From NCBI GenBank assembly GCA_022823465.1, contig JAJEHX010000049.1, positions 1-33,039 of the forward strand: DNA of 33,039 bases. The letters are read 5' to 3'. This DNA is from Candidatus Latescibacterota bacterium. Its GTDB lineage: Bacteria > JAAXHH01. The notes beneath the pieces are model-generated. The model was not told the DNA's origin. It ran no database searches and saw nothing but the letters and a program-made list of their open reading frames with translations. Every line of letters starts with the position of its first letter. Position 1 is the stretch's first letter. Below, in pieces: positions 5,654 to 20,175 of this stretch. Made by a program: the position numbers and the translations under genes.

Positions 5654-6082
5654 TTGGACAAGGACGTTGCCGTATTCAAGGCCTGTTCGGACGCGACCCG
5701 CCTGCGTATCCTGTTCCTGTTGACCGAGGGTGAATTGTGCGTCTGCGAAATCATGGCGGTTCTGGACCTTCCGCAGGGCAAGGTCTCGCGTCACGTGGCC
5801 GTTCTGAAACAATACGGTCTGCTCACGGACCGCCGCGACGGGGTGTGGATCTACTATGCCTTGGCCAGAGATTCTTCGATCGCCCTGAAGTACGTGTCGG
5901 TTTATCTTGTCTCGGCCCGTCAGGTTCACGACCGGGTCCTGGCGGACCTGGAGCGGTTGCGTGGACTGGTCAGCCAGGGTAAAATCTGCGTGCCCCGGCC
6001 GTCCATGGCCCAACTCCAGGTGGACGATCGCGAAGATCCGCATGTACACGGCCAGTCCCTGCCCGTACGGGAAGCGCAGTGA
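5654..6082 (+). CDS. arsR: ArsR-family metalloid-responsive repressor
   Basis: A 142-residue winged-helix protein. The motif ELCVCEI (Cys29, Cys31) at the start of the DNA-binding region is the arsenite-sensing site of classical ArsR proteins. Residues about 38-55 (LPQGKVSRHVAVLKQYGLL) form the recognition helix-turn-helix, followed by the wing DRRDGVWIYYAL. The start is TTG at 5654 with GGAGA 8 nt upstream; no better start is present. The tail after about 110 is longer than in short ArsR proteins and ends in a polar segment. The stop overlaps the next start codon by 4 nt (GTGA). It should repress its own operon from the palindrome at 5596-5619. Confidence 0.92.
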   Translation: MDKDVAVFKACSDATRLRILFLLTEGELCVCEIMAVLDLPQGKVSRHVAVLKQYGLLTDRRDGVWIYYALARDSSIALKYVSVYLVSARQVHDRVLADLERLRGLVSQGKICVPRPSMAQLQVDDREDPHVHGQSLPVREAQ

Positions 6083-6726
6083 ACCGGTCCGCTCAAGATA
6101 CCGTCTTCTACCCCGGTCTCAGCCGCTATCTGCAGGCGCGCCTCGCGGAAACGGACCTGCTACCGGCGGGCCGGGACAAGACGCTGGAACGCGTTTCGGC
6201 GTATATCGCTGATAGAATGAGAAACGGCCAGTCGGCCCGGCTCACCTTTATCTGTACGCATAATTCCCGCAGGAGCCAGATGGCTCAGATCTGGGCACAG
6301 GCCTCGGCGCAGTTCTTCGGATTATCCGGAGTATATACCTTCTCGGGCGGCACGGAAGCCTCGGCCTTCGATCCCAGGGCCGTATCGGCGATGGTTCGGG
6401 CGGGTTTCCGGATCGAACCATGCTCGGCGGAGGACAATCCGGTATACCTCGTTCAATCCGGACCTGAACTCCCTCCCGTACGCGCGTTCTCCAAGGCCTA
6501 CCTGGATCCCCCGAACCCCCGGGACGGATACTGCGCGGTCATGGCCTGTTCGAGCGCCGACCGCGGCTGTCCCGTGATTTCCGGCGCCGACGAGCGCATT
6601 CTCATTCCCTACGAAGACCCGAAAACCTCCGATGGAACGGACCGGGAGACGGCCGTTTACGACGAAAGATGCCGGGAAATCTGCCGGGAGATGGGCTGGC
6701 TGTTCGCAAGGGCCAGCGTCGCATGA
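6079..6726 (+). CDS. Arsenate reductase-like low-molecular-weight phosphatase
   Basis: A 215-residue protein of the LMW protein-tyrosine-phosphatase/ArsC fold. The P-loop is C59-THNSR-R65-S66 (CX5RS), preceded by a hydrophobic strand LTFI. The acid loop is YEDPK (Asp180-Pro181). Cys157 and Cys164 in VMACSSADRGC are candidates for a thiol relay. The first 50 or so residues are a helical extension also seen in a subfamily found beside arsenic genes. It is expected to reduce arsenate to arsenite for the exporter next door; a true tyrosine phosphatase cannot be excluded by sequence alone. It starts with GTG overlapping the arsR stop, implying translational coupling. Confidence 0.85.
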   Translation: MNRSAQDTVFYPGLSRYLQARLAETDLLPAGRDKTLERVSAYIADRMRNGQSARLTFICTHNSRRSQMAQIWAQASAQFFGLSGVYTFSGGTEASAFDPRAVSAMVRAGFRIEPCSAEDNPVYLVQSGPELPPVRAFSKAYLDPPNPRDGYCAVMACSSADRGCPVISGADERILIPYEDPKTSDGTDRETAVYDERCREICREMGWLFARASVA

Positions 6727-6789
6727 CGATCTCGGGATGCACCGCTTAGACCGATATTAGCCCACGATGAACACTGCAGGAGAGGGAAC

Positions 6790-7830
6790 ATGGATTCAAC
6801 GACGAAGCGGCTGTCGGTGCGGGACCGGTACCTGACCCTGTGGATCTTCCTGGCCATGGGCCTGGGGGTCGCACTCGGCGTCGGGGCGCCGGCCGTTCCG
6901 GCTTTGATCCAGCTGGGGCAGGTGGGTACGACCAATCTGCCCATCGCCATCGGGCTCATCCTGATGATGTATCCTCCGCTCGCCAAGGTGAAGTACGAGG
7001 AACTCGGGGACGTGTTCCGGAACGTGCGGATACTCGGAGCGTCCCTGTTCCTGAACTGGGTCGTCGGCCCCATCCTGATGTTCGGACTCGCCGCGCTCTT
7101 CCTGCCGGGACATCCCGAATACATGACGGGCCTGATCCTCATCGGCCTGGCCCGGTGCATCGCCATGGTCATCGTGTGGAACGAACTGGCGAAGGGAAAC
7201 ACGGAGTACGCCGCCGGTCTCGTGGCCTTCAACAGCCTGTTCCAGGTGTTCTTCTACAGCGTGTACGCCTACGTCTTCATCACGGTGCTTCCACCCTATT
7301 TCGGACTGGAAGGCAGCGTCGTACCGGTTACCATCGCCCAGATCGCGGAAAGCGTGTTCATCTACCTGGGCATTCCATTCTTCGGAGGCATGGCGACCCG
7401 CCTGATCCTGTTGCGGCTCAAGGGAAGGCGTTGGTACGAATCGACCTTCATTCCCCGCATCAGCCCCATTACCCTGGCCGCGCTGCTGTTCACCATCGTG
7501 GTCATGTTCAGCCTCAAAGGCGACACAATCGTTGCCATCCCCCTGGACGTGGTCCGGATCGCCTTGCCGCTGCTGGTCTACTTCGTGGTCATGTTCCTGC
7601 TCACTTTCTGGATGGGACGGAAGATCGGCGCGGACTATTCCCGGAACGCCACGCTCTCCTTCACTGCGGCGAGCAACAACTTCGAACTGGCCATCGCCGT
7701 GGCCGTGGCGGTCTTCGGCATCGAATCGGGCGTGGCCTTCGCGGCGGTCATCGGCCCCCTCGTCGAAGTGCCGGTCATGATCGCGCTGGTCAACGTGTCC
7801 CTTCGGTTTCAGAACACGTATAACAGATAA
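6790..7830 (+). CDS. acr3: Acr3-family arsenite efflux transporter
   Basis: A 346-residue protein with about ten transmembrane segments, of normal length for Acr3 (ArsB of the BASS superfamily). Two residues essential in Acr3 are in place: Cys123 in [18 protein letters not shown] (TM4) and Glu326 in [10 protein letters not shown] (TM9). The conserved [18 protein letters not shown] segment is also present. AGGAGAGGG sits just before the ATG. It exports arsenite made by the upstream reductase and completes a three-gene ars operon. The 63-bp gap from the reductase shows no terminator. Confidence 0.96.
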
Positions 7831-10071: not shown

Positions 10072-10126
10072 TACGTGAATCGTGTATGACTCGAGAGGTC
10101 GATTCAGGCTGTTTCAGGGAGCAATA

Positions 10127-11230
10127 ATGGGGCACATACGATCCTTTCTCCACGGAATGAAGTTTCTCCGGCTGTTCATCTTTGCGATCTTCGCGGCGTT
10201 CATCGCGTCAGGCTGCGGCGACGCCAGTTCCGGCACAGGCGATAACTCGGACGAAGGCAAAAACGGCGAGGCCGACGCGGATTCCACCGCTCCGCCTCCC
10301 GTCCCCGTAAGCGTGACACCCGCTTCCCTGGGCACCATTTCCGACGTTATCCTGACGACCGCCACGGTGGAGGCGGACCGCGACGCCCGCATCTTCCCGA
10401 GAACCACCGCCATGATCGAGGATATCCTGGTCCAGGAAGGGGACCGCGTGGAACAGGGCCAGACGCTGGCCGTCCTGGAACATGCCGAGGAAGAGGTCGC
10501 TCTGGCCCGGGCGGAGGCGATCAGACAGGCTCGGAAGCAGGAGTTCGACCGGTCGGTCGCCTTGCTTAACGGCGAGCTCATCAGCGAGGTGGACCACGAG
10601 TCCAAGGAACGGGAGTACATCATGGCCAAGGCGGACTGGGAAACCGCCAGGGTCTCCTACGACAAGACCACCATCACGGCCCCATTCAGCGGCACGATTA
10701 CGGAACGGCATCTCAATGTCGGCAACATGGCCAGGCCGGGCGACGCCCTCTTCACGCTGGTGGATCTGAACACCCTGCTGATTTACACCTACCTGCCCGA
10801 GATGGAGTGGGCGCACGTGAACGCGGGCCAGGACGTCGTACTGGAGACCGATACCCTGCCCGACGGTGAATTCGGCGGCAAGATCCATCGCGTGAGTCCC
10901 ATCATCAACCCGCAGAACGGCACCTTCAAGGTAACGATCCGGATCAACGACCCCGGCTGGCGCCTGAAGCCCGGGATGTTCGTCCGCGTCAAGATACTCG
11001 CCGACCAGCACAAGGACGTGCTGCTGGTCCCCAAGATCGCCCTGCTGGACAACAACCACGTCTTTACCGTGCGAGACGACAGCCTGGCGGTCCGCGCCGA
11101 ACTCACCCTGGGCCTGCAGGACGCCGATTTCGTCGAGATCGTGGAAGGACTTAACGCCGGCGACCAGATCGTCATCGCAGGGCACCGAAGCATGAAGGAC
11201 AGCACGCGGGTCAAAATCGTAACGCCCTGA
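10127..11230 (+). CDS. RND efflux periplasmic adaptor lipoprotein (membrane fusion protein)
   Basis: A 367-residue HlyD/AcrA-like adaptor. The ATG at 10127 is preferred over an in-frame GTG at 10082 because GGGAG lies 5 nt before it and because it gives a clean lipoprotein signal peptide ending in FIASGC. A low-complexity acidic linker follows, then a biotinyl-lipoyl-like half (DARIFPRTTAMIEDILVQEG), a short alpha-hairpin, the second lipoyl half (TTITAPFSGTITERHLNVGN), a beta-barrel (LINPQNGTFKV-type region) and the membrane-proximal domain (LLVPKIALLDNNHVFTV). It links an inner-membrane pump to an outer-membrane channel. It is the first gene of a three-gene operon with two RND pumps; no TolC-like gene is present here. 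Confidence 0.93.
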   Translation: MGHIRSFLHGMKFLRLFIFAIFAAFIASGCGDASSGTGDNSDEGKNGEADADSTAPPPVPVSVTPASLGTISDVILTTATVEADRDARIFPRTTAMIEDILVQEGDRVEQGQTLAVLEHAEEEVALARAEAIRQARKQEFDRSVALLNGELISEVDHESKEREYIMAKADWETARVSYDKTTITAPFSGTITERHLNVGNMARPGDALFTLVDLNTLLIYTYLPEMEWAHVNAGQDVVLETDTLPDGEFGGKIHRVSPIINPQNGTFKVTIRINDPGWRLKPGMFVRVKILADQHKDVLLVPKIALLDNNHVFTVRDDSLAVRAELTLGLQDADFVEIVEGLNAGDQIVIAGHRSMKDSTRVKIVTP

Positions 11231-11267: not shown

Positions 11268-14200
11268 ATGACCATAGTCGACTTCGCCATCCGCAGACCG
11301 GTCACCGTCACCATGCTGGTGCTGGCGGCGCTGATTTTCGGCTTCGTCTCCTTCGGCCGCCTCGCGGTAAACCTGCTGCCCGATATTTCCTATCCTTCGC
11401 TGACCGTTCGGACCGAGTACGAAGGCGCCGCGCCTGAAGAGATCGAGAACCTCATTTCCCGGCGTATCGAAGAAGCCGTAGGCGTCATCACCGGACTGGT
11501 CGAAGTCAGTTCCATTTCGCGCGCCGGCATCTCCGACGTGGTGCTGGAGTTCGATTGGGATACGGACATGAACCTCGCGGTCATGGACGTCCGCGAGCGG
11601 GTGGACCGCGTTTTCCTGCCGGAAGACGCCGAAAGGCCGCTGCTGCTCCGATACAACCCCGAGCTCGACCCGATCATGCGCCTCGGCCTGTCCGGCGAAG
11701 ACCTGATCATGCTCCGCAACCTGGCGGACTGGGAAATCCGCAGGGAACTGGAGACGATTCCAGGAGTAGCCTCGGTGCGCATGAAAGGGGGACTGGTCGA
11801 GGAAATCCAGGTGGAGATCGACGAAGCGCAACTGACGCGGCTGGGCCTCACCTTCGAACAGATCAACCGCCGTCTCGCCGCCGAAAACATCAACCAGGCC
11901 GGCGGGCAACTCCGGGAAGGCGACGAGGAGCTGATCGTTCGCGCGGTCAACGAATTCCAGACGGTAGAAGAAATCGGCGAAATCATCATCTCACGCCGGG
12001 GCGAAGTACCCGTCCGGCTGAACGACCTTGCAATGGTGCGGCGCCACTACAAGGAAAGAAAGACCGTTACCCGGATCAACGGGCAGGAGAGCGTGGAAAT
12101 CGCCTTGTTCAAGGAAGCCGACGCGAATACGGTAACGGTCGCCCGCGCGATCAAGGAGCGGCTTGGCGACATCGGGACCGGAATGGGAGAAGAGGACGGC
12201 GGCGATGAAGCGAGTCCCGCGGGTGGCGGCGGGGAGGAAGAAACAGCCGCTGAAGGGACAGAAACGGCCGGACCAGCCGGGCCGTCTGTCGCCGACGGAA
12301 GGCGCACCGTGGTTTCGACTCTGCCGGAAGGCGTCTCGCTTTACATCGTATCCGATCAGTCCCGTTTCATCGAAAACGCCATCGACGAAGTGATCAGTAC
12401 CGCCCAGTGGGGCGGTGTGCTGGCGATCCTGGTCCTCTTCCTGTTCCTGCGCAACTTCAAAAGCACCTTGATCGTGGGCGTGGCCATTCCGGTATCGGTG
12501 CTGATCACCTTCATCCTGATGTTCTTCAGCGACACCACGCTCAACATCATGTCGCTCGGCGGGCTGGCCCTGGGCATCGGCATGCTGGTCGACAACGCCA
12601 TCGTCGTGCTCGAGAGCATATTCCGGTGCAGGGAAGAGGGGGACTCCATCGTCGAAGCGGCCCGGCGCGGCGCGTCGGAAGTAGGCATGGCCGTGACCGC
12701 CTCGACCCTCACGACCATCGCCGTGTTCTTTCCCATCGTGTTCATCGAAGGGGTCGCCGGCCAGATCTTCACCGACCAGGCCCTGACGGTCACCTTCGCC
12801 CTGCTGGCCTCGCTCGCCGTGGCGCTCACGTTCATTCCCATGATGGCCTCCCGGGAAGGCGGGACGAGCGGCGCGGCGGGAAGCGGTCTCTGGGTACAGG
12901 CCGCGTACCGGGACTTCCGTCGGTCCGCGCCGGAAGAACGGGTCCGTGCCTGGCGTTGGTTCCCCCGGAAGGCGAGGCAGGATACCAAAGCCTGGTTCAT
13001 CGGAACTTTTCCCGGACTCGCCTGGTTCGGAGAGACCGCCGGAAGATTCAGGACGCGCAAGGATACTCCGCCATCCCGGGCGGGCTGGATCCTTTTCTAT
13101 CCGGTATATCTGGCCGGCCGTTTCTTCGTGCTGGTGTGGCGCTGGTTGAAGGGTTGCGTGGTTCAGGGCCGCGGCAATATCCTGCACGACGGCCGGACGC
13201 GGCGGCTGCTGGCGGCCGCAGGGCGGGTTCCGCGATGGATCGCCGTGTGCGCGTTCCGTTTCATACTGCCCTTCTTCCGGCTGGTCCGGTTCCTGATCGG
13301 CAGCCTGTTCAAGACCCTCTTTACGATCGTACCCAACGTGCTGGCGCTGGTGCTGACCCCATTGTGGCTGCTGGCTCGCGCCGTATTCTGGCTGCTGGGC
13401 AAGGTCGTCCACCCGGTACTGAATCTGTTCAACCTCGCGCTCTCGAAATGCCAGGCGCTCTACGTATCCGTGCTCTCCCGCGCGCTGGAACACCGGTTCG
13501 TCACGATGCTCTTCGTCGCGGCGATCGTAGCCACCTCGGCGGTGCTGATCCCCCGTCTGGGGACCGAGTTGATTCCTGAACTGGAACAGGGCGAGTTCGC
13601 CGTCGATCTCATCCTGCCGACGGGCACGCCGCTGGCCACCACCGACACGACCGCGACGCGGATAGAGAACCTGATCCGGGACGACCCGGACGTCGAACAG
13701 GTCTACGTCGTGGTAGGTGCGGTGGAATCGGGCGGCACGCTCGTCGAGGAAGAACGGGAGAACATCGCGCGGGTGGCCGTGATGCTCCAGCCGGAGGCGA
13801 TGAGGCGGCAGGGAAGCGACGACGTCATGGAACGGCTCCGGTCCCGCCTGGCGGACATCCCCGAGGCCCGGATGGAGTTCGTCCGCCCCGCCCTGTTCAG
13901 TTTCAAGACGCCGCTGGAAGTGGAAATCCGGGGGTACAACCTGCGGGATCTCCGTTCCGTCAGCGGCCGGATCGTCGACGCCCTCGAAGACGTGGAAGGC
14001 CTCAGGGACGCCCGATCCCTGATGGAGGTCGGGCATCCGGAGGTCGTGGTCGTCTTCGACCGCGATCGCATGGCGGCCCTGGGCGTGGACATCGGCCAGG
14101 CGGCCGACGCGATCAGGAACAAGGTCCGCGGCAGCGTCGCCACCCGGTTTTCCGCGGGAGACCGGAAAATCGATATCCTCGTCCGTGCCAGGGAGGAGGA

Positions 14201-15074
14201 CCGAAAGGAAATCGCCCAGTTGAAGGCCCTGGCCGTGAACACCGGCGAGCGCGGGAATACGAACGCAGAAAACCAGCCGGCCGGGAACGCGTCCGGGGAA
14301 GATCCCGGATCGACGAGCGGCGGGTCTTCGCAACCCGTTGCCGAACGCGGCGCCGTGCCGCTCAATGCCGTGGCGCAGGTGCGCCTGGACGAGGGGCCGA
14401 GCGAGATCCGGCGCATAGACCAGCAGCGTGTGGCGCTCGTGACGGCCAATCTGACGGGGATCGACCTGGGGAGCGTGGCGCGGGACATCCAGAACAGGCT
14501 GACCGGGCTCCCGCTGCCCGATGATTTCAGTATCGACCTGGGCGGCCAGTACCGGGAGATGAACACCGCGTCGCGCAGTATGCTGCTCGCCATTGCCATG
14601 GCCGTTTTCCTGGTCTACCTGGTCATGGCCTCCCAGTTCGAGTCGCTGCTGCATCCCTTCATCGTCATGTTCTCCTTTCTGCTCGCCCTTTCCGGCGTGC
14701 TGGTGGCTCTGTACCTGCTCGATATCACGATCAGCGTCGTGGTCCTGATCGGCATCATCATGCTCGCGGGCATCGTGGTGAACAACGCCATCGTACTGGT
14801 GGACTACATCAACCGGCTGCGGAAGAGAGGCGAAGACCGGATCAGCGCCGTCATCACGGCCGGCCGGGTGCGGCTCCGTCCCATATTGATGACGACCGCC
14901 ACGACCGTCCTGGGACTGCTGCCCCTGGCGCTGGGCATTGGCGAAGGCGCCGAAATACGCACACCGCTCGCCGTCACCGTGATCGCGGGACTGATTTCGT
15001 CCACTGTGCTTACCCTGATCGTAATTCCCGTCGTCTATACGCTGCTGGATCGAAAACCGGACGTGAACGCGTGA
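11268..15074 (+). CDS. RND efflux pump subunit with enlarged TM6-TM7 loop
   Basis: A 1268-residue HAE1/AcrB-type transporter, about 200 residues longer than usual. It starts IVDFAIRRPVTVTMLVLAAL (TM1), has the TM4 proton-relay motif GMLVDNAIVVLES, and TM10 GIVVNNAIVLVDYI; the N residues are normal for the VDN/VNN class. Three insertions stand out. First, a Gly/Glu-rich segment lies at about 302-345 in the first periplasmic domain. Second, about 210 residues lie between TM6 (ends near 527) and TM7 (near 739), with several long hydrophobic stretches, for example WILFYPVYLAGRFFVLVW. Third, an Asn/Gly/Ser-rich segment lies at about 990-1028. The frame is intact throughout. It lies 37 bp after the adaptor gene. 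The substrate is unknown. Confidence 0.95.
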   Translation: MTIVDFAIRRPVTVTMLVLAALIFGFVSFGRLAVNLLPDISYPSLTVRTEYEGAAPEEIENLISRRIEEAVGVITGLVEVSSISRAGISDVVLEFDWDTDMNLAVMDVRERVDRVFLPEDAERPLLLRYNPELDPIMRLGLSGEDLIMLRNLADWEIRRELETIPGVASVRMKGGLVEEIQVEIDEAQLTRLGLTFEQINRRLAAENINQAGGQLREGDEELIVRAVNEFQTVEEIGEIIISRRGEVPVRLNDLAMVRRHYKERKTVTRINGQESVEIALFKEADANTVTVARAIKERLGDIGTGMGEEDGGDEASPAGGGGEEETAAEGTETAGPAGPSVADGRRTVVSTLPEGVSLYIVSDQSRFIENAIDEVISTAQWGGVLAILVLFLFLRNFKSTLIVGVAIPVSVLITFILMFFSDTTLNIMSLGGLALGIGMLVDNAIVVLESIFRCREEGDSIVEAARRGASEVGMAVTASTLTTIAVFFPIVFIEGVAGQIFTDQALTVTFALLASLAVALTFIPMMASREGGTSGAAGSGLWVQAAYRDFRRSAPEERVRAWRWFPRKARQDTKAWFIGTFPGLAWFGETAGRFRTRKDTPPSRAGWILFYPVYLAGRFFVLVWRWLKGCVVQGRGNILHDGRTRRLLAAAGRVPRWIAVCAFRFILPFFRLVRFLIGSLFKTLFTIVPNVLALVLTPLWLLARAVFWLLGKVVHPVLNLFNLALSKCQALYVSVLSRALEHRFVTMLFVAAIVATSAVLIPRLGTELIPELEQGEFAVDLILPTGTPLATTDTTATRIENLIRDDPDVEQVYVVVGAVESGGTLVEEERENIARVAVMLQPEAMRRQGSDDVMERLRSRLADIPEARMEFVRPALFSFKTPLEVEIRGYNLRDLRSVSGRIVDALEDVEGLRDARSLMEVGHPEVVVVFDRDRMAALGVDIGQAADAIRNKVRGSVATRFSAGDRKIDILVRAREEDRKEIAQLKALAVNTGERGNTNAENQPAGNASGEDPGSTSGGSSQPVAERGAVPLNAVAQVRLDEGPSEIRRIDQQRVALVTANLTGIDLGSVARDIQNRLTGLPLPDDFSIDLGGQYREMNTASRSMLLAIAMAVFLVYLVMASQFESLLHPFIVMFSFLLALSGVLVALYLLDITISVVVLIGIIMLAGIVVNNAIVLVDYINRLRKRGEDRISAVITAGRVRLRPILMTTATTVLGLLPLALGIGEGAEIRTPLAVTVIAGLISSTVLTLIVIPVVYTLLDRKPDVNA

Positions 15075-15116: not shown

Positions 15117-18100
15117 ATGATGTTTCGATTCCTGACTCCCGCTAACTGGACCGCCTTCGCGTTCCGCAGGCCGGTGACGGTCTTCATGGTGCTGGTCAGC
15201 GCGATCCTCTTCGGCGCGGTCTCCTTCAGACTGCTGCCCCTCGAGTTCATCCCGGCCATCGAAGGAACCTGGATGAACGTCTGGGTCCCCTATCCCAATT
15301 CCACTCCCGAGGACAACGTGCAGATGATCGCCCGGCCGCTCGAGGGAGAGCTGAAGACCCTCCGGGGACTGCTTCGCGTGGAATCCAACGCGAGGACCAA
15401 CGGGGTAAGCGTCAACCTGCGCTTCGATTACGACACCGACATGAAGCTGGCCTATATGGAGGTCCGCGACCGCGTAGAGCGGGTGCGGCCCCGGCTGCCC
15501 GATGAAATAGACCGCATCTGGGTAAGGAAATTCTCCAGTACCGATATCCCGGTCATGTGGCTCGCCATGTCTTGGCACGGCGACCAGGACGCGTTGTACC
15601 AGGTGGTCGACGAGCAGCTCCGGCCCCGCCTCGAGCGCCTGGACGGCATCGCCGGCATCGACACCTGGGGATCGCAGTCCCGGCAGGTGATCATCGACAT
15701 GGATGAAGACCGGCTGAAGGCCTACCGGGTGAATCCCGAGCAGTTTCTGGGCGCCATGGAACAGGCCAACATGGACTCCCCGGGGGGATACGTGGAAGAC
15801 GGCGGCTTCCGATACCTGGTCCGGCTTACGGGCGCGTTCCAGTCCGTGGAGGACATCCGGGCGTTTCCCATCAACCAGCGCGGCCTTCGCCTAGGCGACG
15901 TCGCCGACGTGGCCTACCGCAAGCCCACGAGCCAGTGGGGTTACCGCCTCGACGGACAGGACGCCGTGGGCATGGTCATCCGCAAGGAGTCCAACGCCAA
16001 CACCGTGGAGGTGACGGCCGCCGTCCGGGAGACGCTGGACGAGCTGACCCGGGACCCGCGTTGGCCCGGCCTGACCTATCAGGTCTTCTTCCAGCAGTCC
16101 ACGTGGATACTGAGTTCGCTCAGCGCGCTCGGAAACGCGGGCATGTGGGGGGGACTGTTCGCCATAGGCGTGCTGTTCTTCTTTCTGAGAAGATACCGGA
16201 CGACCTTCATCATCGCCGCGTCCATCCCCGCGTCCATCCTGGTCACGTTCACGGCCATGTATTTCATCAATACGAGCTACCAGATCCTTTCGCTCAATCT
16301 CATTTCCCTGATGGGACTGATGCTCGGCATCGGCATGCTGGTGGACAACGCCGTGGTGGTGCTGGAGAACATCCTCCGGCTCCGGCGCCAGGGCGTGGAA
16401 CCCGTAAAGGCGGCCATCCAGGGCGCCCGCGAGGTCGCGGTGGCCGTCAGCGCGGCGACGCTCACCACGGCGATCGTATTCCTGCCCCTGCTTTTCATAG
16501 GAGACGGGGGAGCGCAGACGCAGATGCGGGAACTGGGACTGGTCATCACCATCGCCCTGATCTCGTCCCTGGTCATGTCGCTGAGCTTCATTCCGCTGCT
16601 CGCGTCCCGTCTGCTGAAGGACGGGGCCCTGCCTGCCGTCGGCCTGCTGGATGCGTTGGAGCGCAGGTATAGCAGGGTGATCGGCTGGGTGCTGAACCAC
16701 CGGCTCGACATGGCGCTCATCCTGGGTGGTTTCGTCATCCTGACCATACTCGTACCCATGAGGCATGTCAAACTCGACAACACGCCCACGGACCAGCGGC
16801 AGGTCTGGATGTACGTCGAACCCGGTCCGTTTCTCGATCTGGACGAGACGGACCAATTTGTGACCGAACGGGAAACCGAGTGGCTGGCAGCGGCCGATTC
16901 CCTGAATATCTCGGCCATTCGCACGGACTTCCGGCCCGGACGGGTCTGGTTCAACGTCTATCTTAAAAATGAACAGGACGATTCGGTCTGGGAGGGGCTG
17001 TTCCACCGGGCGAAGTACCCCTGGGTATGGGGTTCGCTCCTGGTCTGCGCCGGCCTGCTCATCGCGCTGCGGAGAAAGCCCTTCGCCTTCCAGGCCCTGG
17101 CCGTCGCCACGGCGCTGTACGTGGCCATCCTCCTCATACTCGGCTCACAGGGCGGGGTTGAGACCTACCGCTCATCGGAAGACGTCGCGAAGGTCCTGCG
17201 CGAGACGATTCCCGAGGCACCGGGGCGGGTCGTGAAATGGCGATGGGGCGAAGAAGGCGAAGAGGACCCGAGGGTGAGCATCGCCCTGAGCGGCGAAGAC
17301 CCCAGGCTGCTCGAGCAGATCGCCGCGGACGTGAACGCGCGGTTGAGCCAGTTGCCTGAAATCACGACGATCACCACCGACCTGGACGACGACGAAACCC
17401 AGGACGAGCTGAGGGTCACCGTGGACCGCGACCTGGCGGGCAAGTTCGGACTCACGCCCCAGCGTATCACCACCATGGCGCTGTCGGGCATCCGGGGGCA
17501 GGAGATGAAGCGGCTGAAAACCGCGGACCGGGAAATCCGGGTCTGGCTGCAAACGGACGAAGAGGACCGGGAGACCGTCCACCAGCTGCGCGACCAGGCG
17601 GTCTACCTGGACGACGGCACGCAACTTCCGCTGGCCACCATGGCCAGTTTCTCGCAGAGCCCCGCCTTCCGCACGATATTTCGCCGGGACAGCCAGACCA
17701 TCCTCATGGTCCGCGCGAACACGACCGCCGAAGGCATCGAGAACCTGGGTACCAGGATAAGCGGCTCCCTCGAGGACCTGTCCCTGCCCCGGGGGTACTC
17801 GTGGCGGCTTGGAGAGCGATGGCAACAACTGGAGGAAGACTCGCAGACCATGGTGCTGGCCGCCATGCTGGCCCTCGTCGCGGTGCTCCTGTTGCTGGGT
17901 TCGCTGTTTGAATCCTTCATCGATCCCCTGATCATCGTGCTGGTGTCCATTCCCTTCGCCTACTTCGGATGCTACTGGATGCTATTCGCTACCGGCACAA
18001 GCATGTCGGTGCTCGCTCTCATCGGGGTGGTCATCCTCATCGGGGTGGTCGTAAACAACGCCATCGTGTTCATCGACCATATCAAGCACCTGGAGAAAGA

Positions 18101-18383
18101 GGGCGGTCTGAAGGGCCATGAGGCGATCATTCAGGCCGGACGCGACCGCCTGCGGCCGATCCTGATGACGGCGCTTACGACCATGCTGGGCCTGCTGCCG
18201 ATGGCCATCGGCACGGCTTCGCTGGGAAATCTGCCCTACTATCCCATGGGCCGGTCCGTGATGGGCGGCCTCATCTTCTCCACCATCGGCGCCATGATCG
18301 CGCTACCCCTGGTCTACAGCGTCTTCGAAGACCTCCGGAACTGGTGGCGGGGCGTCCTGGCCAGGATCCGGCAGCCAGTGTGA
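15117..18383 (+). CDS. Second RND efflux pump subunit with a membrane hairpin in its second periplasmic domain
   Basis: A 1088-residue RND transporter. The start is ATG at 15117 or, more likely, the next ATG at 15120, since GGAGGG abuts the first. TM4 carries GMLVDNAVVVLENI and TM10 GVVVNNAIVFIDHI. In the second porter domain, at about 632-676, lie two strongly hydrophobic stretches (WVWGSLLVCAGLLIAL and ALAVATALYVAILLIL) joined by RRKPF, which ordinary RND pumps lack there. The rest is standard, including the C-terminal MTALTTMLGLLPMAIG. It follows the first pump by 42 bp. Tandem RND genes with one adaptor may form a heterotrimer, as in MdtBC. Confidence 0.94.
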   Translation: MMFRFLTPANWTAFAFRRPVTVFMVLVSAILFGAVSFRLLPLEFIPAIEGTWMNVWVPYPNSTPEDNVQMIARPLEGELKTLRGLLRVESNARTNGVSVNLRFDYDTDMKLAYMEVRDRVERVRPRLPDEIDRIWVRKFSSTDIPVMWLAMSWHGDQDALYQVVDEQLRPRLERLDGIAGIDTWGSQSRQVIIDMDEDRLKAYRVNPEQFLGAMEQANMDSPGGYVEDGGFRYLVRLTGAFQSVEDIRAFPINQRGLRLGDVADVAYRKPTSQWGYRLDGQDAVGMVIRKESNANTVEVTAAVRETLDELTRDPRWPGLTYQVFFQQSTWILSSLSALGNAGMWGGLFAIGVLFFFLRRYRTTFIIAASIPASILVTFTAMYFINTSYQILSLNLISLMGLMLGIGMLVDNAVVVLENILRLRRQGVEPVKAAIQGAREVAVAVSAATLTTAIVFLPLLFIGDGGAQTQMRELGLVITIALISSLVMSLSFIPLLASRLLKDGALPAVGLLDALERRYSRVIGWVLNHRLDMALILGGFVILTILVPMRHVKLDNTPTDQRQVWMYVEPGPFLDLDETDQFVTERETEWLAAADSLNISAIRTDFRPGRVWFNVYLKNEQDDSVWEGLFHRAKYPWVWGSLLVCAGLLIALRRKPFAFQALAVATALYVAILLILGSQGGVETYRSSEDVAKVLRETIPEAPGRVVKWRWGEEGEEDPRVSIALSGEDPRLLEQIAADVNARLSQLPEITTITTDLDDDETQDELRVTVDRDLAGKFGLTPQRITTMALSGIRGQEMKRLKTADREIRVWLQTDEEDRETVHQLRDQAVYLDDGTQLPLATMASFSQSPAFRTIFRRDSQTILMVRANTTAEGIENLGTRISGSLEDLSLPRGYSWRLGERWQQLEEDSQTMVLAAMLALVAVLLLLGSLFESFIDPLIIVLVSIPFAYFGCYWMLFATGTSMSVLALIGVVILIGVVVNNAIVFIDHIKHLEKEGGLKGHEAIIQAGRDRLRPILMTALTTMLGLLPMAIGTASLGNLPYYPMGRSVMGGLIFSTIGAMIALPLVYSVFEDLRNWWRGVLARIRQPV

Positions 18384-18508: not shown

Positions 18509-19285
18509 TCACCTGGCGAGCTTTCCAATCTCCTCGGTCAGACGCCGTATCCGGGGACGCCCGCTCTTCAAGAAGGACGCGTGTGGCTTAAACGCGTTCG
18601 GAGCGCCGTCCCGCAGCATGGCCAGGTGCGCTTCCGTCTTCGGCCGGGGGCCGAACTTAAGCACGATGACCCGCCGTTTGCCCGTCTTCCCGTACACCGC
18701 GTGATACAGCCACTGGTTGAAGAAGACGAGATCGCCCGGATCGGTTTCAATGGCGCAGGCGGGCATTTCAGGTCCGTCGATACCGAAAGGGCTGGGATCA
18801 CCGCCCAGATGAGCGTCCTGAAGGGGAAACAGCGATCGGTGAAAAGGATCCCGGTGGGAACCTGGAATGACCCGAATTGCGCCGGTTTCTCTGCGCTGCT
18901 GATCGAGGTACAGCATGACCTTGGTCCTCGGGTAGTCGAGATGCCGTGACGTCTTGTGGCCGTCGAAATGCCAGGTGTGGTCGGCCAGCTTCGGGTCGAT
19001 GCCCCACATGACTTCGGAGCCGATCCAGATGAAGTCCTCGCCCAGCAGTTCGCTCGTGGCCAGGTAGATCCGGTCGTCTTCCAACAGCCGCATCAGAGCC
19101 GGCCGCTCCTCGACGACCTCCGACGCCCAGAGGTATGCCGACTCATCGCCGCCGCGGTCCAGTTTCTCCGCGTACGCCGCGTCGGCCTCGCTGATCAACG
19201 CCTCTGCCTCGTCCGTAGCAAAAGCCTGGCGCATGACCAGGAATCCAAAGGTGTGGAAATGGGCGATCTGTTCGTCGGACAGCAT
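18509..19285 (-). CDS. Phytanoyl-CoA dioxygenase (PhyH) family protein A
   Basis: About 258 residues of the Fe(II)/2-oxoglutarate-dependent PhyH family. The ATG at 19285 (MLSDEQIAHFHTFGFLV) has AGGAAG upstream and matches the usual N-terminus; a TTG 27 nt earlier at 19312 is possible but less likely. The iron triad is visible as H106-F-D108 (WHFDGH) and H195 (LYHAVYG), with Arg204 (KRRVIVLKF) placed to bind 2-oxoglutarate. GAIRVIPGSHR is the usual family strand. It would hydroxylate a small organic substrate, unknown here. It lies 62 bp downstream of a second PhyH gene on the same strand and converges with the RND operon. Confidence 0.92.
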   Translation of the reverse strand: MLSDEQIAHFHTFGFLVMRQAFATDEAEALISEADAAYAEKLDRGGDESAYLWASEVVEERPALMRLLEDDRIYLATSELLGEDFIWIGSEVMWGIDPKLADHTWHFDGHKTSRHLDYPRTKVMLYLDQQRRETGAIRVIPGSHRDPFHRSLFPLQDAHLGGDPSPFGIDGPEMPACAIETDPGDLVFFNQWLYHAVYGKTGKRRVIVLKFGPRPKTEAHLAMLRDGAPNAFKPHASFLKSGRPRIRRLTEEIGKLAR

Positions 19286-19347
19286 GAAACACGTCTTCCT
19301 GGGTTTTGGCAAGCGGCCGCGGCGGGCTTACCGGTCGGCGTGGCGGG

Positions 19348-20175
19348 TCAGGGTTGCACGATACTGCTTCGCGACAACATGGCTTTGCCGCGATCCGAAA
19401 GTTTCTCGTATTCCGCTTTAGCCATCTCGATTGTGGAAGTGCGGAACCACGGCAGAGAATAACAGATGACCAGCTCTCCGCGGGCGTGGTCCGAGCGGTT
19501 CGGCGTGCCCCGGTGAAGGGTCCTCGGATCCTGGACCCAGAAAGTGCCCTTCTTCAGGTTCAGGCGGTGGGCGGGCGGGAAATCTCCCCGAAGCAGCACG
19601 TCATTGTACGTCTTCTCCATGTCCGGGTCCGCCAGGTACTGCGTGCCGGGCATGACCTCGAAACTGCCGTTTTCTTCGCTCGTATCGACAAGAGGAAACT
19701 TGACGCCGAAATGGGGGCAGATGGGCAGGCCGACATGGGGCGTAACCAGGTGAATGTCCCGGTGCCAGGGTTGGTACTCGCTGCCCGGATACGGATTGTT
19801 CGAATGATAGCAGGTGACGTGGAAATCGTCGGTGCCCCAGTAACGTTCGAGAAACGCCAGGACGACGGGGTTTTCGTAGATCTCCGGATCGGAGAAGGGC
19901 GGTTCCCACGGGATGTGCATGGTGTAGCGGTTGACGAACTGCTGGCGGCCTTTGCCCGCGCGGACCTCGCCCCGCTCCTTCGGATGGATCTCGTGCGACT
20001 CGCGGGCCTTTAGCCGTTCCAGTCTTGGCATGAAGGCCTCTCGAACGCGGTCGATTTTCTCCGGTTCGACGAGGTCTTCGAAGGTCGTAAATCCGCTGAT
20101 CTTGAGTTCCGCCACCTTCAGGTCGAGATCGAAATCTCCTGGCGCGGTGGTCGTGGGTGGTTGCGCTGCAGTCAT
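19348..20175 (-). CDS. Phytanoyl-CoA dioxygenase (PhyH) family protein B
   Basis: A 275-residue Fe(II)/2-oxoglutarate oxygenase. The iron ligands are H138-R-D140 (WHRDIH) and H221 (TLHRGTPN), with Arg232 for 2-oxoglutarate. NGSFEVMPGTQYL is the counterpart of the family's GALRVIPGSH strand. The N-terminal 15 residues are disordered (TAAQPPTTTAPGD). The ATG at 20175 has no strong Shine-Dalgarno. It is upstream of PhyH A in the same orientation and probably co-transcribed; the two proteins are clearly different, so this is not a recent duplication. The substrate is unknown. Confidence 0.92.
   Translation of the reverse strand: MTAAQPPTTTAPGDFDLDLKVAELKISGFTTFEDLVEPEKIDRVREAFMPRLERLKARESHEIHPKERGEVRAGKGRQQFVNRYTMHIPWEPPFSDPEIYENPVVLAFLERYWGTDDFHVTCYHSNNPYPGSEYQPWHRDIHLVTPHVGLPICPHFGVKFPLVDTSEENGSFEVMPGTQYLADPDMEKTYNDVLLRGDFPPAHRLNLKKGTFWVQDPRTLHRGTPNRSDHARGELVICYSLPWFRTSTIEMAKAEYEKLSDRGKAMLSRSSIVQP

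Follow-up and report, generated by a model that had tools for sequence, protein, structure and literature searches.

The second of two tandem RND permeases encoded in the stretch of DNA analyzed here (33,039 nucleotides, hereafter the window) carries a hairpin of two hydrophobic helices inside its periplasmic porter subdomain PC1. We regard this feature as probably a lineage-specific expansion by which a PC1 loop facing the membrane became a two-helix membrane anchor encoded in cis, which would turn the pump into a 14-helix RND protomer. According to the literature, such pumps possess 12 transmembrane (TM) helices, and their porter domain lies outside the membrane (PMC8277102). Among the papers listed by full-text searches of the open literature, a scope that takes in little of the subscription literature, none deals with a porter subdomain of an RND pump that contains TM helices. 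The genome to which the window belongs, as contig C32, is 3.86 Mb in size, and its named relatives are MAGs that carry the label Candidatus Latescibacterota or Gemmatimonadetes.

The permease that bears the hairpin, pump 2 of the tandem pair (15117-18383, + strand; 1088 aa, 14 predicted TM helices), matched the PF00873 profile in two stretches with 615 bits (curated cut-off 28), which places it in the family. A Kyte-Doolittle scan averaged over 19 residues yielded precisely 14 peaks with a value of 1.2 or more, 12 of which fall at the places of the canonical RND helices, with the large loops after TM1 and TM7, whereas the other two correspond to KYPWVWGSLLVCAGLLIAL (residues 633-651) and AFQALAVATALYVAILLIL (residues 657-675), connected by RRKPF (residues 652-656). 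The two added peaks score 1.46 and 2.34, respectively, compared to 1.60-2.83 for the canonical helices of the same protein, and both sit in the TM7-TM8 periplasmic loop. The earlier note on this DNA, which was concerned with positions 17008-17147 (+), corresponding to residues 631-677 of the ORF, had claimed that two hydrophobic segments joined by RRKPF lie in the porter region and that the overall topology is preserved by the even number of helices. The two extra peaks and their location in PC1 bear out the first two points, and the addition of precisely two helices supports the third.

Hydrophobic stretches of this strength are not found elsewhere in the porter and funnel regions of the sequences compared, as none of 20321 19-mers taken from 41 aligned sequences (window included, insert region excluded) reached 1.4, the maximum being 1.21. 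A second comparison covered 186 periplasmic loops from 92 RND ORFs (near-identical ones removed), to which the window was added, so that it enters the count twice; all nine rows of at least 2.0 were hairpin orthologues, and the next highest value was 1.67. Eight loops without a hairpin scored 1.42-1.67 in this set, and helix a reaches 1.46 in the window and 1.50-1.89 in 10 orthologues, so that helix a is only moderately hydrophobic and it is the pair, together with helix b, that stands out. The existence of a two-helix hydrophobic hairpin in the porter region of pump 2 is thus confirmed beyond chance at the level of sequence, and the claim is carried by the strong helix b, by the pairing of the helices and by their conservation.

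To locate the hairpin within the fold, an AF2 model of pump 2 was built from 22 sequences, some diverged rows of which were visibly shifted around beta2/beta3 (mean pLDDT 71, pTM 0.63); a model based on eight close orthologues instead gave a mean pLDDT of 37. The 22-row model aligned with AcrB chains with Z scores of up to 44.5 (925 residues, rmsd 6.6), the best match being the AcrB of Klebsiella, and Foldseek also matched, so the modeled overall fold is AcrB-like. PC1 spans approximately residues 556-712 (16782-17252, +) according to the AF2 secondary structure, with the elements in the order beta1 (562-569), alpha1 (575-591), beta2 (598-606), beta3 (609-616), the insert, alpha2 (687-697) and beta4 (704-710), which is the order of the standard ferredoxin-like PD fold (PMC8277102). 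Within the insert the model gives helices at 624-631, 635-651 and 657-676. As the elements of PC1 are complete around the insert, the hairpin appears in the model as an insertion in the beta3-alpha2 loop of an intact subdomain. Insertions between beta2 and beta3 are named for PN2 and PC2 in the account given in PMC8277102, which calls PC1 a continuous fold. The possibility raised in the earlier note that these stretches are buried core helices of the porter domain does not hold in the AF2 monomer, in which PC1 is complete without either of the added helices.

Orthologues of pump 2 were present in all 12 genomes of the window's genus among the 16 genomes of the phylum that were examined; 10 are full-length (window included), that of G009 runs from residue 121 on, and that of G002 is split over two contigs. 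No intact copy was found in the four phylum genomes from other genera. A profile of pump 2 residues 545-770 (A3) matched over its entire length in 12 of the 384 genomes scanned, all of them from the genus, and in 2 of 385 genomes of an overlapping second set at E 1e-12, both also from the genus, with no match spanning both helices in the other 372 genomes of the first scan or the other 383 of the second, overlapping one. Three matches outside the genus begin within the hairpin region, at A3 positions 106 (G013), 125 (G222) and 123 (G413), but the pumps concerned (L032, L094 and L139) hold no hairpin, so the alignments arise by chance or from the flanks. Judging from sequence, a conserved hydrophobic PC1 hairpin is found so far in a single genus among the genomes scanned.

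Residue-by-residue comparison of 11 genus sequences (G002 was left out) revealed 22 invariant positions within residues 632-680, including W636, W638, R652, Q659 and Y668, and W625 is invariant as well. This last residue lies in a short helix that precedes the hairpin (624-631; 16986-17009, +; pLDDT under 50). Helix a (635-651; 17019-17069, +; pLDDT about 49-54) has W636 and W638 at its putative periplasmic end, the turn RRKPF (17070-17084, +), which is predicted to be cytoplasmic, contains R652 and holds two or three Arg/Lys residues in 11/11 sequences, and helix b (657-676; 17085-17144, +; pLDDT about 43-54) keeps A657, Q659, A662, A666, Y668, A670 and G676. Neither helix has a charged residue in any of the 11 sequences, and the substitutions observed are among hydrophobic or small residues only. 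The earlier note had proposed that absence from all close homologues would suggest an error. On the contrary, the hairpin is present in 12/12 members of the genus, which, along with purifying selection (see below), rules out a sequencing or frame error. A Pfam scan of residues 611-692 returned only PEMT (E 0.12, below its cut-off), and the borrowing of a domain from a known family was accordingly rejected. Comparison with BFVD yielded nothing at E 0.001 or better, and no relatives were found in scans of viral contigs with queries P0002 and A4.

Pooled over 55 pairs, dN/dS was 0.297 for the hairpin, 0.380 for the stretch 617-632, 0.275 for PC1 before the hairpin and 0.157 after it, 0.091-0.118 for the TM domain and 0.156-0.166 for other porter regions. 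These sequence-based values indicate that the hairpin is under purifying selection, yet less constrained than the remainder of pump 2. Such a pattern, with the hairpin, the stretch before it and the preceding part of PC1 all above the TM domain and the other porter regions, is what would be expected of a tolerated rather than a critical addition, that is, of a loop that drifted into a membrane-inserting hairpin without acquiring specific work and whose loss would now destabilize the fold; the restriction of the hairpin to one genus among the genomes scanned also fits. We consider this explanation unlikely, as the hairpin is kept in all 12 genomes, with pump 2 identity down to about 78% (77% for the hairpin-bearing part of G002), and as the invariant positions number 22, the two Trp of helix a, R652, Q659 and Y668 among them.

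To analyze the origin of the hairpin, a pump-2 profile was run against 290 genomes, and the 30 best loci were retained, two from members of the genus and 28 from others. In 28/28 of these best-scoring relatives outside the genus the place of residues 610-690 is occupied by 40 residues, compared to 81 in the genus (+41), and a TM hairpin is absent from all of them; a paralogue on contig C26 of the same genome and its relative in G013 have 20 residues at this place. Relatives such as those in G359, G230 and G089 are 37-38% identical to pump 2, differing from it in the PC1 loop shorter by 41 residues and the lack of the hairpin, and their adjacent pump 1 matches that of the window with 56-57% identity over the first 500 residues or so. 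The loop of all 28 relatives contains a Trp, which aligns with W625 in a small alignment, whereas in a larger one it stands one column earlier, opposite V624. Because of this one-column disagreement, descent of W625 from the loop Trp of the relatives is likely, not certain. The stretch that follows the Trp in the relatives is partly amphipathic (mean z versus shuffles 1.29; 8/28 below 0.05 singly). In a tree rooted by choice on the C26 paralogue pair, the hairpin clade is monophyletic with support 1.0 and sister to the 28 relatives, so on this sequence tree the hairpin arose in one origin. The C26 paralogue belongs to a second tandem RND pair related to that of the window (G000:C26:45504-51844, L011), which has no hairpin and a TM6-TM7 loop shorter than in the window pair. 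A relic of pump 2 was observed in another genus of the same family (L098, G013:C151, approximately 5895-6294), in which residues of about 521-585 adjoin residues 1022-1087 in another frame and the hairpin-bearing middle is missing, possibly by a fault of assembly.

Beyond the existence, location, hydrophobicity, conservation and, on the tree, single origin of the hairpin, which are established from the sequences, its true insertion in the membrane is likely, the model being unsure of this part (pLDDT 43-54). From the positive-inside rule and the Trp belt we infer an orientation with the turn on the cytoplasmic side, in which the chain would go down from the periplasm at the W636/W638 end, make the RRK turn in the cytoplasm and come back up to alpha2 of PC1. 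Arg/Lys counts in the 11 sequences are 2-3 in the turn, 2-4 before helix a, together with 3-4 acids, and a single Arg after helix b, together with 2-3 acids. In the ferredoxin-like PD topology the end of beta3 shares an edge with the start of beta1, which follows TM7, and the hairpin would therefore leave PC1 on its membrane side. The most likely consequence of such an arrangement would be the pinning of PC1 to the membrane, with the hairpin acting as a built-in tether by which the movement of PC1 is restricted or coupled.

PN2/PC1 of AcrB is connected to TM2, and PN1/PC2 to TM8; drugs bind laterally in the TM1/TM2 and TM7/TM8 grooves (PMC5171871), the former being the starting point of CH4 and the latter that of CH1 (PMC8277102). 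A hairpin emerging from the underside of PC1 would sit close to one of these grooves, lining a lateral entrance for drugs on the membrane side near TM7/TM8 or TM1/TM2, and could shape lateral drug entry. AcrZ illustrates that an extra TM helix is able to modulate an RND pump, and as with AcrZ, a TM element is expected here against the RND membrane domain (PMC7267776). By analogy, the hairpin may act like AcrZ leaning on the membrane domain of AcrB, but in cis. AcrZ is a separate single-helix protein, whereas the feature of pump 2 is a two-helix hairpin within a porter loop, encoded in frame in the pump gene.

Several observations weigh against the membrane anchor. Few parts of the model have a confidence as low as the hairpin, at pLDDT 43-54 by blocks of ten residues against a mean of 71, and the hydrophobicity of helix a is only moderate (1.46). 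Evolution of the hairpin is faster than that of the canonical TM domain (dN/dS 0.30 versus 0.09-0.12), the positive-inside signal read from the sequences is modest, with Lys/Arg also preceding helix a, and the Trp of the relatives is off by one column from W625 in one of the alignments.

If the tether is selected, it would represent a natural test of how freely PC1, which swings during the transport cycle (PMC4403515), must move, and would also bear on how drugs enter sideways from the bilayer, with the short loop of the relatives serving as a natural tether-free control. A more ambitious version of the anchor hypothesis, which we put forward tentatively and rate as rather doubtful, is that this would be the first described RND pump with a porter subdomain wired into the membrane, where the hairpin would be a cis regulator coupling PC1 motion to the bilayer, or a rebuilt lateral gate for lipophilic substrates, the series from the short loop of C26 through the Trp loop to the hairpin documenting its evolution.

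The gene located directly upstream of the pumps encodes a periplasmic adaptor of the HlyD/CusB-like type (10127-11230, +; PF16576, PF13437), for which the ATG upstream of FIASGC was picked by eye as the start, the ORF beginning at 10082. Its signal, also judged by eye, is of the lipoprotein type. The position of this gene and its lipoprotein-like product would fit a role of the hairpin in docking or anchoring, by helping to seat the adaptor, as would the contact of the membrane-proximal domain of PAP1 with PC1 and the presence of one adaptor copy on PC1 in AcrAB (PMC6975555). Nevertheless, we find such a role distinctly improbable, as the hairpin is hydrophobic and most likely lies in the bilayer, off the exposed face of PC1.

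Pump 1 of the pair (11268-15074, +; 1268 aa, PF00873 at 807 bits) shows an expanded hydrophobic TM6-TM7 loop at approximately residues 530-745 (12855-13502, +) with several semi-hydrophobic stretches. This loop is conserved in 5/5 aligned orthologues and was found in 6/6 pump 1s examined outside the genus, where the region measures 168-286 residues (window, 250; C26 paralogue, 133). The pump 2s of those six genomes (L080, L081, L082, L084, L085 and L087) have no hairpin. As the loop is common to all six, it is older than the hairpin, and the two features were not gained together; a joint gain was hence rejected on the basis of these six pairs. From its distribution in these sequences, the loop looks like a family trait of the tandem RND pair. 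A relative of pump 1, 53-59% identical over the first 500 residues or so, was present in 8/8 extra-phylum genomes searched with it, adjoining pump 2 in seven of them and lying on a separate contig in G120.

The contact with the altered partner pump suggested in the earlier note, through which the hairpin of pump 2 would meet the modified membrane region of pump 1 in a heteromer, is not supported by this distribution and appears very unlikely. In the five loci of the genus where both genes are complete (L013, L015, L016, L017 and L019), pump 1 directly precedes pump 2, and a heterotrimeric assembly has been described for known tandem pumps such as MdtBC (PMC10872679), both of which would favor the contact, but the loop occurs in 6/6 outsiders whose pump 2s lack the hairpin, and it lies on the cytoplasmic side, whereas the hairpin leaves from the periplasmic side. 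Packing of both helices away from the membrane, either within the porter domain or in the center of the trimer, would agree with the low AF2 confidence of the hairpin but is equally improbable, given the modeled completeness of PC1 without them, the make-up of the two helices, which are 17 and 20 residues long, flanked by Trp, free of internal charge and joined by an Arg/Lys turn, and a hydrophobicity of helix b within the range of canonical TM helices.

Compared to known systems, pump 2 is homologous to the AcrB/HAE-type permeases (PF00873) and shares with them the 12 TM helices and the porter and funnel regions. The window pair resembles MdtBC, MuxBC and SmeJK, tandem heterotrimeric pumps of Clade B (PMC10872679), in having two adjacent homologous RND permeases and one adaptor gene, and differs from them in the hairpin of pump 2 and the expanded TM6-TM7 loop of pump 1. 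MdtB was the best PDB sequence match to pump 2. The scores of pump 2 against the NCBIfam equivalogs, 334.5 bits for MdtB/MuxB and 383.7 for MdtC, lie far below the respective cut-offs of 1584 and 1774.

Proton relay in AcrB relies on two Asp of TM4 together with a Lys of TM10; this trait belongs to the AcrB/MdtB branch and lies outside the Pfam definition. Pump 2 departs from the AcrB/HAE type in this respect too, in addition to the two extra TM helices in PC1, as the alignment places D410-N411 of TM4 and N980 of TM10 where MdtB has Asp-Asp and Lys. A comparison of 12 related RNDs, with the window pumps among them, showed D410 to be conserved in 12/12, N411 in 7/12 and N980 in 11/12. As these substitutions are common in the group, its proton coupling may differ.

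Analysis of the window on either side of the pumps revealed two adjacent genes of the PhyH (phytanoyl-CoA dioxygenase) family downstream (18509-20175, - strand). At 6079-7830 (+), a gene for a low-molecular-weight phosphatase-like protein is followed by one for an SBF-family transporter, an order that we take to be reminiscent of an arsenate reductase with an arsenite exporter.
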